The position numbers and the translations under genes were made by a program. Shown here piece by piece: positions 4,008 through 53,934 of a stretch of 57,792 nucleotides of DNA (the stretch's first letter is position 1; each line of letters starts with the position of its first letter). Source of the stretch: Microscilla marina ATCC 23134 (lineage in GTDB: Bacteria > Bacteroidota > Bacteroidia > Cytophagales > Microscillaceae); NCBI RefSeq assembly GCF_000169175.1, contig NZ_AAWS01000057.1:1-57792 (forward strand), read 5' to 3'. A model generated the notes under the pieces. It was not told the DNA's origin, searched no databases, and worked only from the letters and a program-made list of their open reading frames with translations.

Positions 4008-4229
4008 GGCGCCCCAACAGGGCTAGATGCCGATGCATACCGGTGCTTTAAGCGACAATTCGCAAGCCCTTATATACCGATGAATATCGGTACCCCGCAA
4101 GCGGGATGTCGGCATAACCTCCACTAGGTGCACCCTGTTTAATTACGTTGAGCTTGTAGATTCGGTTCATAGGCAACTAATAAATTTATAGTGCGCTTAT
4201 TTTCAGCCAGTTATAAATTTGTTAGTTAG
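4008..4229 (-). repeat. Dispersed hairpin repeat, inverted copy (family of the 52.3 kb array)
   Basis: Read on the minus strand this stretch matches, in order, the elements of the 44.7 kb and 52.3-52.9 kb repeats: a stem AACTAACAAATTTATA (4211-4226) pairing with 4175-4190 at 15 of 16 positions plus one G-T, then GTCGCTTAAAGCACCG (the segment shared with 44.7 kb) and a final CCCTGTTGGGGC. It lies upstream of the AraC gene (start 3949) and beyond the rplT terminator. No ORF is credible here. Confidence 0.7.
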
Positions 4230-4311
4230 AAGAAGAAATGCGTGTTTGAATAGGGTAGGAATGGCATTTGGTTGGTGGGGTATTAGGGAGATATTTGTCA
4301 AAAAGACACAA

Positions 4312-30069: not shown

Positions 30070-31131
30070 ATGTTCAACAAAGAACCCTACATCAACTTAT
30101 TAAAAGCGCTCATTGCCACCCCTTCGTTTAGTCGTGAAGAAGACAAAACCGCGACTGTCATAGAGCACTTTATCCGGCAACGGGGATTGCCACCCCAGCG
30201 GGCAGGCAACAATGTATGGGTAAAGTCGAGCCAGTTTGAGGCAGGCAAGCCTGTAGTATTGCTCAATTCGCATCACGATACGGTAAAACCCGTGCAAGGC
30301 TGGCAACGCAATCCGCACGAACCCAATGAGGAAAACGGAACTATTTTTGGCTTGGGCAGCAACGATGCCGGGGCTTCGTTGGTGTCATTGTTGGCAACAT
30401 TTGTATACCTCAATGCCTTGCCTCATCGAAGCTATAATTTGATTTATGCGGCTACTGCCGAAGAAGAAATTTCGGGTAAAAATGGCATTGCCAGCATTTT
30501 GGAGCAATTGGGTACTATAAACCTAGGCGTGGTGGGCGAACCTACCCAAATGCAAATGGCTATAGCCGAAAAAGGTTTGGTAGTGATAGACGGCGAAGCC
30601 AAAGGCAAAGCCGGACACGCCGCCAGAAACGAGGGCGAAAATGCCATCTATAAAGCCTTGCAAGACATTCAATGGATACAAAACTATGCCTTCCCTAAAA
30701 AATCGGAGTGGTTGGGGGCAGTAAAAGCGACTGTTACCCAAATAGAAGCGGGTTATCAGCACAATGTAGTGCCTGATAGCTGCAAGTTTGTAATTGATGT
30801 ACGTACTCAGGAATGCTACAGTAACCAAGAGGTAGTAGATGTATTGCAACAACATACCCAAAGCACCCTCACCCCACGTTCGTTGCGGCTCAATTCGTCA
30901 GGTATTTCGGTAGACCATCCTATTGTGCAAAAAGGCAAAGCCCTGGGGTTGTCTTGTTATGGTTCGCCTACCTTGTCCGATCAGGCATTGTTGCCTTTTA
31001 CTACCATCAAAATAGGGGTAGGCGATTCGGCTCGCTCGCATACTGCCAACGAATACATTTTACGCAAAGAAATAGAACAAGGCATTGACACGTATTGCCA
31101 GTTGTTGGAAGGGCTGGAAATTTTTAATTAA
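30070..31131 (+). CDS. argE: M20 family deacylase, acylornithine/acylcitrulline deacetylase
   Basis: Zinc-dependent M20 peptidase-family enzyme. In the acylated route of Bacteroidota it removes the acyl group from acylcitrulline (inference from the operon). 353 residues. Metal and catalytic motifs: LLNSHHDTVKP at about 58-68, GLGSNDAGASL near 95-105, AATAEEEISGKNG near 128-140, GVVGEPTQMQMAIAEKGL near 153-170, and the final His in SARSHTANEYI near 325-335. The dimerisation domain starts near GKAGHAARNEGENAI. It lies between two repeat arrays: 183 bases after argB and 543 before argH. Confidence 0.9.
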   Translation: MFNKEPYINLLKALIATPSFSREEDKTATVIEHFIRQRGLPPQRAGNNVWVKSSQFEAGKPVVLLNSHHDTVKPVQGWQRNPHEPNEENGTIFGLGSNDAGASLVSLLATFVYLNALPHRSYNLIYAATAEEEISGKNGIASILEQLGTINLGVVGEPTQMQMAIAEKGLVVIDGEAKGKAGHAARNEGENAIYKALQDIQWIQNYAFPKKSEWLGAVKATVTQIEAGYQHNVVPDSCKFVIDVRTQECYSNQEVVDVLQQHTQSTLTPRSLRLNSSGISVDHPIVQKGKALGLSCYGSPTLSDQALLPFTTIKIGVGDSARSHTANEYILRKEIEQGIDTYCQLLEGLEIFN

Positions 31132-31132
31132 T

Positions 31133-31635
31133 TACGAGTTGAACAATTACGAATGGATCAATTACGAATTACGAATGGACGCAAAGCTTTTTAATTACGA
31201 ATTACGAATGCTTCAATTACGAATGGACGCTAAAAACTAGTGTCTACTGACTCCGGACTAAATTATGAGTGGCTTCGCCCAATTCGTAATTCGTAATTCG
31301 TAATTCTCAAATTCGTAATTATTAAACTGACTCCGGACTAAATTATGAGTGGCTTCGCCCAATTCGTAATTCGTAATTCGTAATTCTCAAATTCGTAATT
31401 CTTAAACTGACTCCGGACTAAATTATGAGTGGCTTCGCCCAATTCGTAATTCGTAATTCTTAAACTGACTCCGGACTAAATTATGAGTGGCTTCGCCCAA
31501 TTCGTAATTAGCTTACGCAGAGCTCCCTACGGTCGGTTCGTAATTCGTAATTCTCAAATTGACTCTGGGCTAAATTACGAATGGCTTCGCCCAATTCGTA
31601 ATTCGTAATTCTCAAATTCGTAATTCTCAAACAGA
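31133..31635 (+). repeat. AATTCGTAATT repeat array, second arginine-operon gap
   Basis: Between argE and argH. The first part has AATTACGAAT copies (the opposite strand of the motif); the second part has five longer units beginning CTGACTCCGGACTAAATTAT or a variant at 31247, 31327, 31407, 31465 and 31559, with spacings of 80, 80, 58 and 94. Each unit ends in GGCTTCGCCC followed by runs of AATTCGTAATTCG. No ORF spans it. The units fold readily because AATTCGTAATT is nearly its own complement. Confidence 0.85.
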
Positions 31636-44652: not shown

Positions 44653-44830
44653 CTTTTAACTACGGTTTGTATAAATTGCTAAAAGTCAACGTGATAGAAA
44701 AAATGTAGTTACTTGTGAATCGAATCTATAGCTTACTATGATGAGTTCAACGTAGTTAAACAGGACTTGCGACTTGTCGCTTAAAGCACCGATACACATC
44801 GGCACCTAAGGACTTGCCCCTGTTGAGGTT
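44653..44830 (+). repeat. Dispersed hairpin repeat, 44.7 kb copy
   Basis: Starts CTTTTAACTACGG and holds the loop segment AAAGTCAACGTGAT, the second stem arm TGTAGTT (44704-44710), and GCGACTTGTCGCTTAAAGC (44770-44788), all shared with the tandem array at 52.3-52.9 kb; its GTCGCTTAAAGCACCG segment is also in the inverted 4.1 kb copy. It ends GCCCCTGTTGAGG, 40 bases before the propeller gene. Confidence 0.7.
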
Positions 44831-51058: not shown

Positions 51059-51943
51059 ATGCTAATGGATAGGAAATATATTTTCTCATTATTGCTGGTG
51101 TTGAGCGGTGTTTTTTTTACTGTGACAAACGTGCAGGCACAAGACAAAAAAGAGAAGGATAAAGACAAAATAGAACTTTACCAGAGGTATACACCCATTT
51201 CGTGGTTTTATAACGAATATTGGGCACAGCCATTTGCTACTACTGCAATACAAAGCCTTCATACGGTGCTTTTTCCACGGATTAATTCCAATGCCAAAAT
51301 ACTTGACTTAATGTGTGGCAGTGGACGTGTGACCAACGCCTTGAAAAAACGAGGTTACAAAATGACAGGGTTAGATGCTTCAGAAGGCATGCTCAATTTT
51401 GCCAGAGTAAACGCTCCCGGAGTACCTTTTATGTTAGACGATGCCCGTCTTTTTGATATAAAAGATGAGTTTGACGCTGTCATCTGTATGAATAACGGGT
51501 TGAACCATATCTTGCAATGGAAAGAGTTGGTAATGGCGTATAGCAAGGTGTATGCATCGCTCAAAAAAGGAGGTTACTTTGTGTTTGATATGAGCCTGGA
51601 GGAGCACTACAAAAATTCATTCTCTAAGCAACGCAATTGGGTAGAGCGCGACAATTTTTCTTGTTTGTATAACTTTAATTACAATCCTCAAGAGCGTTTG
51701 GGGGCTATAGATTTTGTGATGTTTTTGGCAAAACAACCTGCTAAAACTCCAGAAGAAAAAGCGGCGCAGGTATGGGGGCGCGTGTCGTGGAGGGTAACCC
51801 AATACTGTTACTCGCACCTTAAGATTATAGATGCGCTTGAAAAAGTAGGTTTTACTGTAATTAAAGTATACGACGGGCAAGATGACTTGAAAAGAGGCGC
51901 CTACAACAAAGGGCGAAGATACTATTTGTGCCAAAAGAAATAG
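51059..51943 (+). CDS. Class I SAM methyltransferase with an N-terminal signal peptide
   Basis: 294 residues. The N-terminus is a clear signal peptide (RKYIFSLLLVLSGVFFTV, then VQAQ at about 25-28), followed by a Lys/Asp-rich spacer. The methyltransferase core then starts: motif I ILDLMCGSGRVTNALKKRG near residues 81-99, GLDASEGMLNFAR near 105-117 (acidic end of beta2), a motif-II-like AVICMNNGLNHIL near 139-151, and LKKGGYFVFDMSL near 170-182. The fold looks intact. An exported SAM methyltransferase is odd because SAM is cytoplasmic. A short start at Met3 does not remove the signal; the first Met after the spacer would be residue 93, inside the core. Confidence 0.8.
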   Translation: MLMDRKYIFSLLLVLSGVFFTVTNVQAQDKKEKDKDKIELYQRYTPISWFYNEYWAQPFATTAIQSLHTVLFPRINSNAKILDLMCGSGRVTNALKKRGYKMTGLDASEGMLNFARVNAPGVPFMLDDARLFDIKDEFDAVICMNNGLNHILQWKELVMAYSKVYASLKKGGYFVFDMSLEEHYKNSFSKQRNWVERDNFSCLYNFNYNPQERLGAIDFVMFLAKQPAKTPEEKAAQVWGRVSWRVTQYCYSHLKIIDALEKVGFTVIKVYDGQDDLKRGAYNKGRRYYLCQKK

Positions 51944-52061
51944 TTATGGAGGGCAGGTTTTTAACAGACTTGCTTTTTTTATTTGAATTTTGTCTGCCTA
52001 AGTCCAACATTGGTAAACAAATCTGAATAGGCAAGGTTATTTTTATAGTTTTACTCAATTA

Positions 52062-52307
52062 CAATACTCCGCAGTGATTTTAGTCAAAGTTGGTTGCTGA
52101 TTAACTTTGTTGAGTTCGCCAGAGGCTCGGTTATCAGTTATTTATGAATTTAAAAACTATTTAACTGGGTGTTTAGGCATAAAACCGAAACACTTTTGAA
52201 AATAAAGTGAGTACGCAATCTTAATATAAAACACTGATTGACTTCATTGAGCTCACAAGTTCGGTTTACAGCATTTAATAAGGTGAACATTTACTCGAAT
52301 CAGCTAT
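52062..52307 (+). repeat. Inverted partner of the 42.6 kb repeat (246 bases, two inserts)
   Basis: Matches the reverse complement of 42571-42759 apart from two inserts. Insert 1 lies about 52100-52130 (ATTAACTTTGTTGAGTTCGC then CAGAGGCTCGG) and insert 2 about 52233-52260 (ATTGACTTCATTGAGCTCAC then AAGTTCGG). Both follow CTG and are related to each other. Confidence 0.85.
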
Positions 52308-52324
52308 GGACTATCGACTAAATA

Positions 52325-52865
52325 CTTTTAACTACGCTTTTCATAAATCACTGAAAATCAACGTGATATAAAAGTGTAGTTACTTGTGGAACAGGGTCTA
52401 GCTTGCCCCCTGTCGGGGCTTTTAACTACGCTTTTTGTAAGTTATTGAAAATCAATGTGATACAAAAGTGTAGTTACCTGTGGAACAGGGTCTAGCTTGC
52501 GACTTGTCGCTTGAAGCTTGCCCCCTGTCGGGGCTTTTAACTACGCTTTTTGTAAGCTGCTGAAAATCAACGTGATACAAAAGTGTAGTTACCTGTGGAA
52601 CAGGGTCTAGCTTGCGACTTGTCGCTTGAAGCTTGCCCCCTGTCGGGGCTTTTAACTACGCTTTTCATAAGTCACTGAAAATCAACGTGATATAAAAGTG
52701 TAGTTACTTGTGGAACAGGGTCTAGCTTGCCCCCTGTCGGGGCTTTTAACTAACAAATTCATAAACCACTGAAAATAAGTATACTATGATTTTGTTAGCT
52801 GTCTCTGGAACAGGAGGCAACTTGAAGCTTGTTGCTTAAAGCTTGCTCCTGTCGGTGCTATGGAC
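52325..52865 (+). repeat. Tandem array of hairpin repeat units
   Basis: Four similar units start at 52325, 52419, 52534 and 52649 (spacings 94, 115, 115), and a diverged fifth at 52743 (94 after the fourth). The 115-base units have an extra 21 bases that contain the palindrome GCGACTTGTCGC. Each unit forms the stem AACTACGCTTTT/AAAAGTGTAGTT around a loop with TGAAAATCAACGTGAT, and ends in GCCCCCTGTCGGGGC. In the fifth unit the stem arms have both changed (AACTAACAAATT with ATTTTGTTAGCT) and still pair at 10 of 12 positions. No ORF. Confidence 0.85.
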
Positions 52866-52910
52866 TATTGCAATTACTGAGTCATCATTAAATATACACC
52901 AAATATCACG

Positions 52911-53384
52911 ATGGACAACAATCACTTATTTATAGAAGCAGTACGCAGTGGTAACCTGAGCACAGTTAAGCAACACCTGAGTAAGTACCCCAATGCTGTC
53001 AATCAAAAAAACGCTCAAGGTTTTACTCCTTTGATTTTGGCGGCTTATTATGATCAATTGCCTGTAGTAGCTTATTTGATTGAGCAAGGCGCTGACATTT
53101 CGGATGTAGATGCCTCTGGCAATACCGCATTGATGGGGGCTTGTTTTAAAGGCTATGAGCAACTGGTGAGCCAGCTTATTGCCTTGGGAGCTGATGTAAA
53201 CGTGCGCAATGTACAAGGAGCAACTGCTTTGATATATGCGTGTATGTTTGATAAGCAAGCCATTGCCCAGTTACTGCTGGAACAAGGAGCAGATGCTTCT
53301 ATCAAAGATACCCAAGGCAAAACTGCCCTTGACCATGCCAAAGCCAAAGGGCTAAAGTGGGGAGAAGAACTACTACAGGTCTGA
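52911..53384 (+). CDS. Ankyrin repeat protein
   Basis: 157 residues of nearly pure ankyrin repeats, about four to five: NHLFIEAVRSGNLSTVKQHL, QGFTPLILAAYYDQLPVVAY with LIEQGADISDVD, GNTALMGACFKGYEQLVSQL with LIALGADVNVRN, QGATALIYACMFDKQAIAQL with LLEQGADASIKD, and GKTALDHAKAKGL. Small cytoplasmic protein-binding module. It has no signal peptide and no partner domain. A terminator follows at 53417-53443. Confidence 0.92.
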   Translation: MDNNHLFIEAVRSGNLSTVKQHLSKYPNAVNQKNAQGFTPLILAAYYDQLPVVAYLIEQGADISDVDASGNTALMGACFKGYEQLVSQLIALGADVNVRNVQGATALIYACMFDKQAIAQLLLEQGADASIKDTQGKTALDHAKAKGLKWGEELLQV

Positions 53385-53416
53385 ATAGCGAATGATTTGT
53401 CGACAAGTAAGAGAAG

Positions 53417-53443
53417 CCGCTTTATTTATAAAGCGGTTTTTTT
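53417..53443 (+). terminator. Rho-independent terminator of the ankyrin gene
   Basis: CCGCTTTA (53417-53424) and TAAAGCGG (53429-53436) across four bases, then TTTTTTT. Confidence 0.9.
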
Positions 53444-53496
53444 GTAATAGAATGCCTGTAAATGTGCCAAATCCTTTGTATCTTTCATGAGACTAC

Positions 53497-53934
53497 ATGA
53501 TGACTATGACAAATCAAGGATATTCGGGAACTCCATTGGTAAAAAAGCTCGGCATTAAGTCTGGGTTTCGAATGTATGGCTATCAGTTGCCACAAGATTA
53601 TTTTCATTGGTTTGACAGCCTGCCCGAAGACCTCCACCTTTTGCCCGAAGAACCATTTGAAGATATACTGGCTGAATCGCTGGATTTCGTGCATGCGTTC
53701 GTCACAGAAAAAAAAACACTCGAAGAAATACTGCCTTTGGTGAAAACCAAAATAAAAAAGAATGGCATGGTATGGGTATCGTGGCCTAAGAAAGCCTCTA
53801 AGGTAGTGACTGATCTCGATAGCCACTTGGTGCGTACATACGGGCTTGAGTGTGGGTTGGTAGACGTAAAGGTGGCAGCTGTAAACGAGGTATGGTCGGC
53901 AATTAAGTTGATGTACCGGGTAAAAGACCGCTAA
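53497..53934 (+). CDS. DUF3052 family protein
   Basis: 145 residues; starts at 53497, 53500 or 53506 are all possible (MMTMTNQGYSG). The family opening GYSGTPLVKKLGIKSG is present, followed by YQLPQDYFHWFDSLPED, a middle FVTEKKTLEEILPLVKTKIKKNGMVWVSWPKK, and the end CGLVDVKVAAVNEVWSAIKLMYRVKDR. The fold is probably Rossmann-like alpha/beta; the function is unknown. TATCTTTC at 53479-53486 is one base off a -7 box. Confidence 0.82.
   Translation: MMTMTNQGYSGTPLVKKLGIKSGFRMYGYQLPQDYFHWFDSLPEDLHLLPEEPFEDILAESLDFVHAFVTEKKTLEEILPLVKTKIKKNGMVWVSWPKKASKVVTDLDSHLVRTYGLECGLVDVKVAAVNEVWSAIKLMYRVKDR

Follow-up and report, generated by a model that had tools for sequence, protein, structure and literature searches.

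The closest described systems are insertion sequences (ISs) of the IS110 family that work with a bridge RNA, IS621 among them. In the sections of PMC11208160 and PMC11187229 used here, these elements are described with a recombinase that carries the PF01548 and PF02371 domains, a noncoding region upstream of its gene, a CT core, and RNA loops that match the target and the donor. Mini-ISs of the family made in the laboratory are mobilized in trans with ends of 29 bp and 16 bp, and those of ISEc21 and ISEc11 consist of short IS ends around a cargo, with transposase and RNA provided in trans (PMC11187229, same sections). Dispersed palindromes have also been linked to this family. REP palindromes are reported as targets of IS110-family elements, which lie at a fixed point of the repeat (PMC1525189, in the part used), and QMITE2, a small palindromic element with its own inverted repeats and with direct repeats of 7 to 11 nt, is a hot spot for an IS1111 element, described solely as a target in the part of PMC5896051 used. 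No report of natural IS110-family mini-elements was found in the portions of open-licence PubMed Central text searched, which included PMC11578231, PMC3718332, and PMC5896051.

Here we analyze an array of hairpin units in a stretch of 57,792 nt, referred to as the window, together with an IS of the same genome, named ISMic110 in this analysis. ISMic110 has the domain pair, the upstream noncoding region, the CT core, and the loop matches of the IS621 type, but its target guide equals its donor guide, its protein is nearer to the long IS110 subgroup than to IS621, and the units that accompany it have no gene. The units resemble the laboratory mini-ISs in their short ends; however, the latter are engineered, whereas the units are natural, repeated in the genome, and arranged in arrays. 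As with the REP targets, an IS occupies one constant position in a dispersed palindrome, but here the palindrome has both ends in common with the IS and has similar insertion junctions. Like QMITE2, the unit is small, dispersed, and palindromic, and a place where an IS is repeatedly found.

RESULTS

Hairpin units and their carrier

The window contains five tandem hairpin units between positions 52325 and 52857 (Table 1). Each of them starts CT|TTTAACTA, and the 3' ends directly before the next CT read TGTCGGGG in units 1 to 4 and TGTCGGTG in unit 5. The folding of all five units beats that of dinucleotide shuffles (z from -3.35 to -4.13), and the unit ends show a GC hairpin with T after it. 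The right end of the unit includes the motifs ACAGGG/CCCTGT and GCCCC/GGGGC. The pairing counts of the first-pass annotation were borne out, with 12 of 12 pairs in units 1 to 4 and 10 of 12 in unit 5, and its inverted copy at 4.1 kb proved to be a minus-strand unit whose 16-nt arms (4175-4190 and 4212-4227) are 94% complementary.

Table 1. Positions of the hairpin units and of their carrier in the window
Feature	Positions	Strand	Remarks
Carrier MITE-A	52062..52870	+	809 bp; contains the whole array; orthologous site empty in sister genome G001
Left target-duplication copy	52056..52061	.	CAATTA, 6 bp (possibly 7 bp)
Right target-duplication copy	52871..52876	.	CAATTA
Carrier 5' part	52062..52324	+	Repeated in G001
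Unit 1	52325..52418	+	Class H1, 94 bp; begins with core CT
Unit 2	52419..52533	+	Class H1, 115 bp
Unit 3	52534..52648	+	Class H1, 115 bp
Unit 4	52649..52742	+	Class H1, 94 bp
Unit 5	52743..52857	+	Class H2, 115 bp; followed by core CT and carrier end ATGGACTATTG
Solitary H2-type unit, hairpin part	4161..4232	-	Model match
Solitary unit, hairpin part	44653..44724	+	Model match; absent from the first-pass list

The carrier of the array, MITE-A, has imperfect terminal inverted repeats (CAATACTCCGCAG / CTATGGACTATTG). At the orthologous locus, the sister genome of the same genus (Microscilla; G001, a draft of 760 contigs) reads TTTTACTCAATTACTGAGTC, compared with TTTTACTCAATTA[52062...52870]CAATTACTGAG in the window. 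The array entered the window as a block with MITE-A. The 5' part of the carrier (query positions ~1060-1335) was covered by more than 20 among the 50 G001 matches listed, and at the spot equivalent to window position ~54010, where the window has no insert, G001 carries another insert of the MITE-A family. The end of the carrier was also found without and with a unit: it reads AAATA CT ATGGACTATTG at locus L047 and AAATA CT TTTAACTAAC...GGTG CT ATGGACTATTG at L129, the unit having entered exactly at CT.

Several further features of these repeats were observed. Members of the MITE-A family (window 52062-52870, L044, L047, L048, and L049) have the imperfect inverted ends CAATAsTCC, with duplications of 6 to 7 bp in the cases read and no clear duplication at L049. 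The right half of many units holds more nested palindromic modules (ACCGATATTCATCGGT, CCGAATCTACAGC...GTTAAA, and GCCGACATCCCGCTTGCGGGG) that look like smaller inserts having entered the units (L096, L098, L107, L120, window 4161-4232, and others). For its part, the window region 31130-31631 consists of heptad-like tandem repeats (AATTCGT; ACTGACTCCGGACTAA) resembling the sequence ACTnnnG, the landing place of many units.

Paired changes in the arms

The arms were compared in 123 model matches from 73 fetched loci of two genomes, that of the window (G000) and G001. An anchor rule left out 16 rows, six of them divergent H3-type stems, and the remaining 107 rows gave 57 distinct arm pairs, or 54 after the removal of three misregistered ones. 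In these 54 pairs, 92.7% of the 648 cells were paired, compared with 78.0% on average after shuffling (sd 1.0). Changes on both sides were present in 73 cells, compared with 22.3 (sd 3.5) in the shuffles; slid controls reached 54.2% pairing at most. Two-sided change affected nine of the 12 pair positions. Three stem classes were distinguished, H1 (TACGCTTTT), H2 (TAACAAATT), and H3 (TACCGATTTT), the last one only among the rows left out, and much of the paired change is a difference between classes. Within classes, two-sided changes were observed at four pair positions in H1 and three in H2, with broken pairs present too.

The co-varying arms had been taken in the first-pass annotation as the mark of a selected RNA or DNA cruciform. 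That the arms are kept complementary was supported; paired change is, however, no proof of either structure, since alike recognition of the two ends of a mobile element yields the same pattern. Judging from the sequences, complementarity may be kept either because one strand folds or because two sites are recognized in the same way, and the arms of the unit resemble the repeats just inside the left and right ends of an IS110-family element. The Rfam 15 search of window positions 51900-53500 gave no match near the gathering score (best, 22.9 bits; gathering score, 100), and the search of the IS region gave no match.

Distribution of the units

At least 150 matches to the unit model were found in G000 (9.77 Mb), and at least 150 in G001. 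An exact 28-mer pattern, searched in a collection of 84,980 species that may omit records of the window's own genome, matched G001 alone. Among 59 Cytophagales genomes, unit matches (E 1e-5, stricter filters) were obtained in two, G000 and G001, and in none of the 57 others, which lie outside the genus. At E 0.01, four of 15 other genomes (L032, L033, L034, and L035) gave weak matches around GTAAnnnnCTGAAAATCAA, in the inner core of the unit, and the unit model supports only that at L035 (E 0.0015).

Insertion sites and junctions

Flanks of 32 of the 53 fetched G000 loci were searched in G001; 25 matched, and with L135, a tandem protein repeat, removed, 24 comparisons were made. Four of these showed a clean empty site in the sister with a single target copy (L101, L103, L104, and L108). 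The unit was likewise absent from the sister at L131, L134, L132, and L113, with other bases or a different insert there. At L118 and L138 the alignment passes through the unit, which is common to both genomes, and the other loci compared showed larger or different inserts or alignments that end early.

The right junction was read by eye at 34 of the 53 loci, six of which, with an adjacent unit, were excluded. The 28 solitary sites so obtained read CT|nnnRACTA on the right side and show only a purine bias on the left. This junction rule is obeyed at the carrier end and on the right side of the 28 sites; the sister has no CT at three of the four clean empty sites, its bases at the position of the core (CT in G000) being TT at L108, CA at L101, CT at L103, and TT at L104. 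At L101 and L108 the right copy is identical to the left copy and not to the single copy of the sister. Across the 28 sites, the agreement between left-end and target 8-mers was 154, compared with a mean of 147.5 for shuffled pairs (p 0.006).

The core mismatches, together with the likeness between left end and target, suggest that the exchange may be wider than CT. Target duplication, conversion, wider exchange, or later mutation could each explain these observations. A plain target duplication of 8 to 10 bp for the solitary units, hinted at by L101, L108, and L110, was not chosen because it is the right copy, and not the left one, that agrees with the empty site at L103, at L104, and at the end of the carrier.

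An IS110-family element that shares its ends with the units

A search of G000 for Transposase_20 yielded 18 matches, six of them within ~2.3 kb of a unit; eight others, fetched with ~1.5 kb of flanks, had no unit. The six unit-adjacent matches correspond to a single IS of 1746 bp, ISMic110, which occurs at seven places in G000 with a printed identity of 100%, one copy being cut by a contig end. Its protein of 458 aa matches DEDD_Tnp_IS110 (PF01548, 63 bits) and Transposase_20 (PF02371, 44.3 bits), both above cut-off, and carries the motif G--P----SG. By both domains, ISMic110 belongs to the IS110 family. The IS1111 group has subterminal inverted repeats and a noncoding region downstream, whereas that of ISMic110 lies upstream; an imperfect subterminal repeat was seen by eye.

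The frame of the transposase is open over 460 codons in the C53 copy, split into two frames in the C44 and C67 copies, and interrupted by stops in the aligned frame in C98 and C11. In the set L205 and L207 to L214, the frame is open in one copy and a homopolymer run differs in the other copies read, which may reflect either slippage or sequencing error.

Both ends of ISMic110, CT|TTTAACTACCGATTTCATAAGTACCCTG on the left and GGTAGTTGCCTGGGGAACAGGCAAACCTGTCGGGG on the right, resemble those of the units. The resemblance of the right end was above all 3000 shuffles for H1 and had a p value of 0.003 for H2. Beyond nucleotide 10, the left end matched three of the four unit types with p values of 0.006, 0.0027, and 0.0003, the match to the fourth being no better than shuffles (p 0.20). 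In all six readable copies of ISMic110, the right neighbour starts CTTTTAACTA (CT|TTTAACTA); it is a unit in four cases and another copy of the IS in two. With shared ends and the same right junctions, the unit resembles an IS that has lost its middle part, and the stem resembles the subterminal repeats of the IS.

An IS110-family element of G001 (L206; C4:111210-112490), 36% identical to ISMic110 and with a weak unit-like match (E 0.069), was considered as the partner of the units in that genome and rejected, its ends being different by eye. This IS seems to sit within unit-like right-end sequence, with CCTGACAGGGG on one side and GACAGGG on the other.

Putative guide segments in the noncoding region

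The noncoding region upstream of the ISMic110 transposase gene measures 321 nt. It aligned with that of an IS relative in another genome (G004; 59% identical) with a score of 84, compared with a mean of 38.8 and a maximum of 59 in 200 shuffles, and also with a G001 fragment, 73% identical, that lies close to the end of a contig. Stem-loop folds are predicted in both full noncoding regions, those of ISMic110 and the G004 element. The ISMic110 region contains CTTAAAAG twice, which was reached by one of 5000 dinucleotide shuffles. Candidate guide segments were picked at the positions homologous to this repeat after the motif had been noticed; the comparison is thus post hoc, and the match between guide and target is not a blind test.

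Written in unit orientation, the loop 1 segments are CTTTTAA in ISMic110, CTACCGA in the G001 fragment, and CTAAGAC in the G004 element, and the DNA to the right of the elements reads CTTTTAACTA, CTACCGACTA, and CTAAGACCAA, respectively. In this post hoc comparison, segment and right-hand DNA match over 7 nt, including the CT core, in all three ISs, compared with 2 to 3 nt in the six cross comparisons. The boundary of the element was set by alignment in ISMic110 and the G001 fragment; in the G004 element it was set by eye at GGGGG|CT and is not independent.

Loop 2 of ISMic110 is also CTTTTAA, the same as loop 1, and fits the core plus the left end of ISMic110 itself. The contig with the G001 fragment does not include the left end of that element. 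Loop 2 of the fragment is CTTCCAT, which agrees with how H3 units start: at four distinct places (five matches, two of which are one place), an H3-type unit opens with CTTCCATCTA, the one at L118 being without a right arm. The left end of the G004 element was not recognized. One guide half was recognized per loop; read in the direction of the transposase gene, this half occupies the side of the loop opposite to that in IS621 and ISEc21, in the order given in the sections of PMC11208160 and PMC11187229 used.

DISCUSSION

The insertions, the junction sequences, the ends shared with the IS, and the guide matches described above are shown by the sequences themselves. From these sequences, it is probable that the hairpin units are natural, gene-less mini-elements of an IS110-family IS of the bridge-RNA type, whose self-fitting guide would build tandem arrays. 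A unit would consist of the right end of the IS with some 40 bp of its left end directly attached, and this would bring the subterminal inverted repeats together as the stem. We infer that the units are mobilized in trans: the bridge RNA would be made, and with it the DEDD recombinase would excise a unit as a circle, which would then insert at a CT core followed by nnnRACTA. Both RNA loops of ISMic110 carry one and the same segment, complementary to CTTTTAA, in which the core is followed by the left end of ISMic110 itself. With a target guide equal to the donor guide, the left edge of every inserted element would be a new target, and insertions one after another would then produce a tandem array. 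Arrays would grow in this way rather than by unequal crossing-over, which could also lengthen them. In the window, the array occupies the end of a further small mobile element, MITE-A, which came in as one block.

The junctions between units bear on this model. In G000, 18 of the 24 unit-unit junction rows begin CTTTTAA and six begin CTTCTAA, rows that are not independent because similar arrays recur in carrier copies. All six rows of G001 begin CTTCTAA (two are probably one place, without a recognizable right end on the left). No IS with a guide for CTTCTAA was found in the 760-contig draft of G001, where neither the 36%-identical IS nor the fragment, which has another guide, fits the commonest left ends of the units. 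The mini-element reading needs an IS with a CTTCTAA guide in that genome; this is its main gap. Our confidence in the reading was lowered by the core mismatches at the sister sites.

The main rival holds that the units are independent palindromes, REP-like or MITE-like, moved by another enzyme, perhaps with a duplication of 8 to 10 bp, and that the IS110-family element is a parasite that targets their left edge. Palindromes and MITEs have been described as targets of IS110-family elements (PMC1525189 and PMC5896051, in the parts used), G001 is rich in units with no fitting IS found, and both the likeness between left end and target and the two empty-site comparisons that look like duplications would agree with it. 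However, the units have the right end of the IS, which a sequence that is only a target would not require; the junctions of units and IS are the same; and H3 units have a left end that agrees with loop 2 of the G001 fragment. We regard this rival as rather unlikely.

A host function, for instance that of a terminator selected for its fold with mobility as an incidental property, would account for the paired arm changes, G-U pairs included, for the GC hairpin followed by T, and for the location of the arrays, none of 53 being inside an open reading frame of at least 100 aa. Yet the genes around these 53 arrays reveal no orientation bias (17 ++, 17 --, 11 convergent, 4 divergent, and 4 unplaced), units are present or absent between sister genomes, and no Rfam match was obtained; we do not favour a terminator or leader that acts in one direction, and we hold the host reading as a whole to be very improbable. 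Even slighter is the probability that the units are REP elements moved by a RAYT or an IS200/IS605 (HUH) transposase, the RAYT type being the partner that the first-pass annotation had proposed to look for. The units are indeed high-copy palindromes between genes, and RAYT-like genes occur in both genomes (the score was 70.3 bits, under the NCBIfam cut-off of 80), and IS200-type genes are present; but none of the 11 loci searched, six RAYT-like and five IS200-type, holds a unit. Moreover, the two RAYT-like genes of the window's genome lie, by eye, among other palindromes. An IS200/IS605 partner was rejected on the lack of unit model matches in its five loci and on copy ends that differ from those of the units by eye.

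Two side observations concern these genes. The RAYT-like genes at L190 and L192 each have short palindromes of their own (TTGGTC...GACCAA; TTGCTTGTG...CACAAGCAA), unlike the units by eye. At L040, an IS200/IS605-type TnpA gene lies beside a frame of 459 codons that is IscB-like by eye.

Returning to the mini-element reading, a broader proposal can be made, which we regard as evenly balanced: a self-targeting bridge RNA and mini-elements mobilized in trans may together form a self-propagating landing-pad system, with tandem arrays, well over 100 matching sites, and unit ends that track the guide of the local IS in each species. IS110-family recombinases are studied as programmable enzymes, and from mini-elements that occur naturally one could learn which ends are sufficient outside the laboratory. 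Some arrays of bacterial palindromes would, if the reading is true, have a simple origin in a guide that equals the end of its own element.
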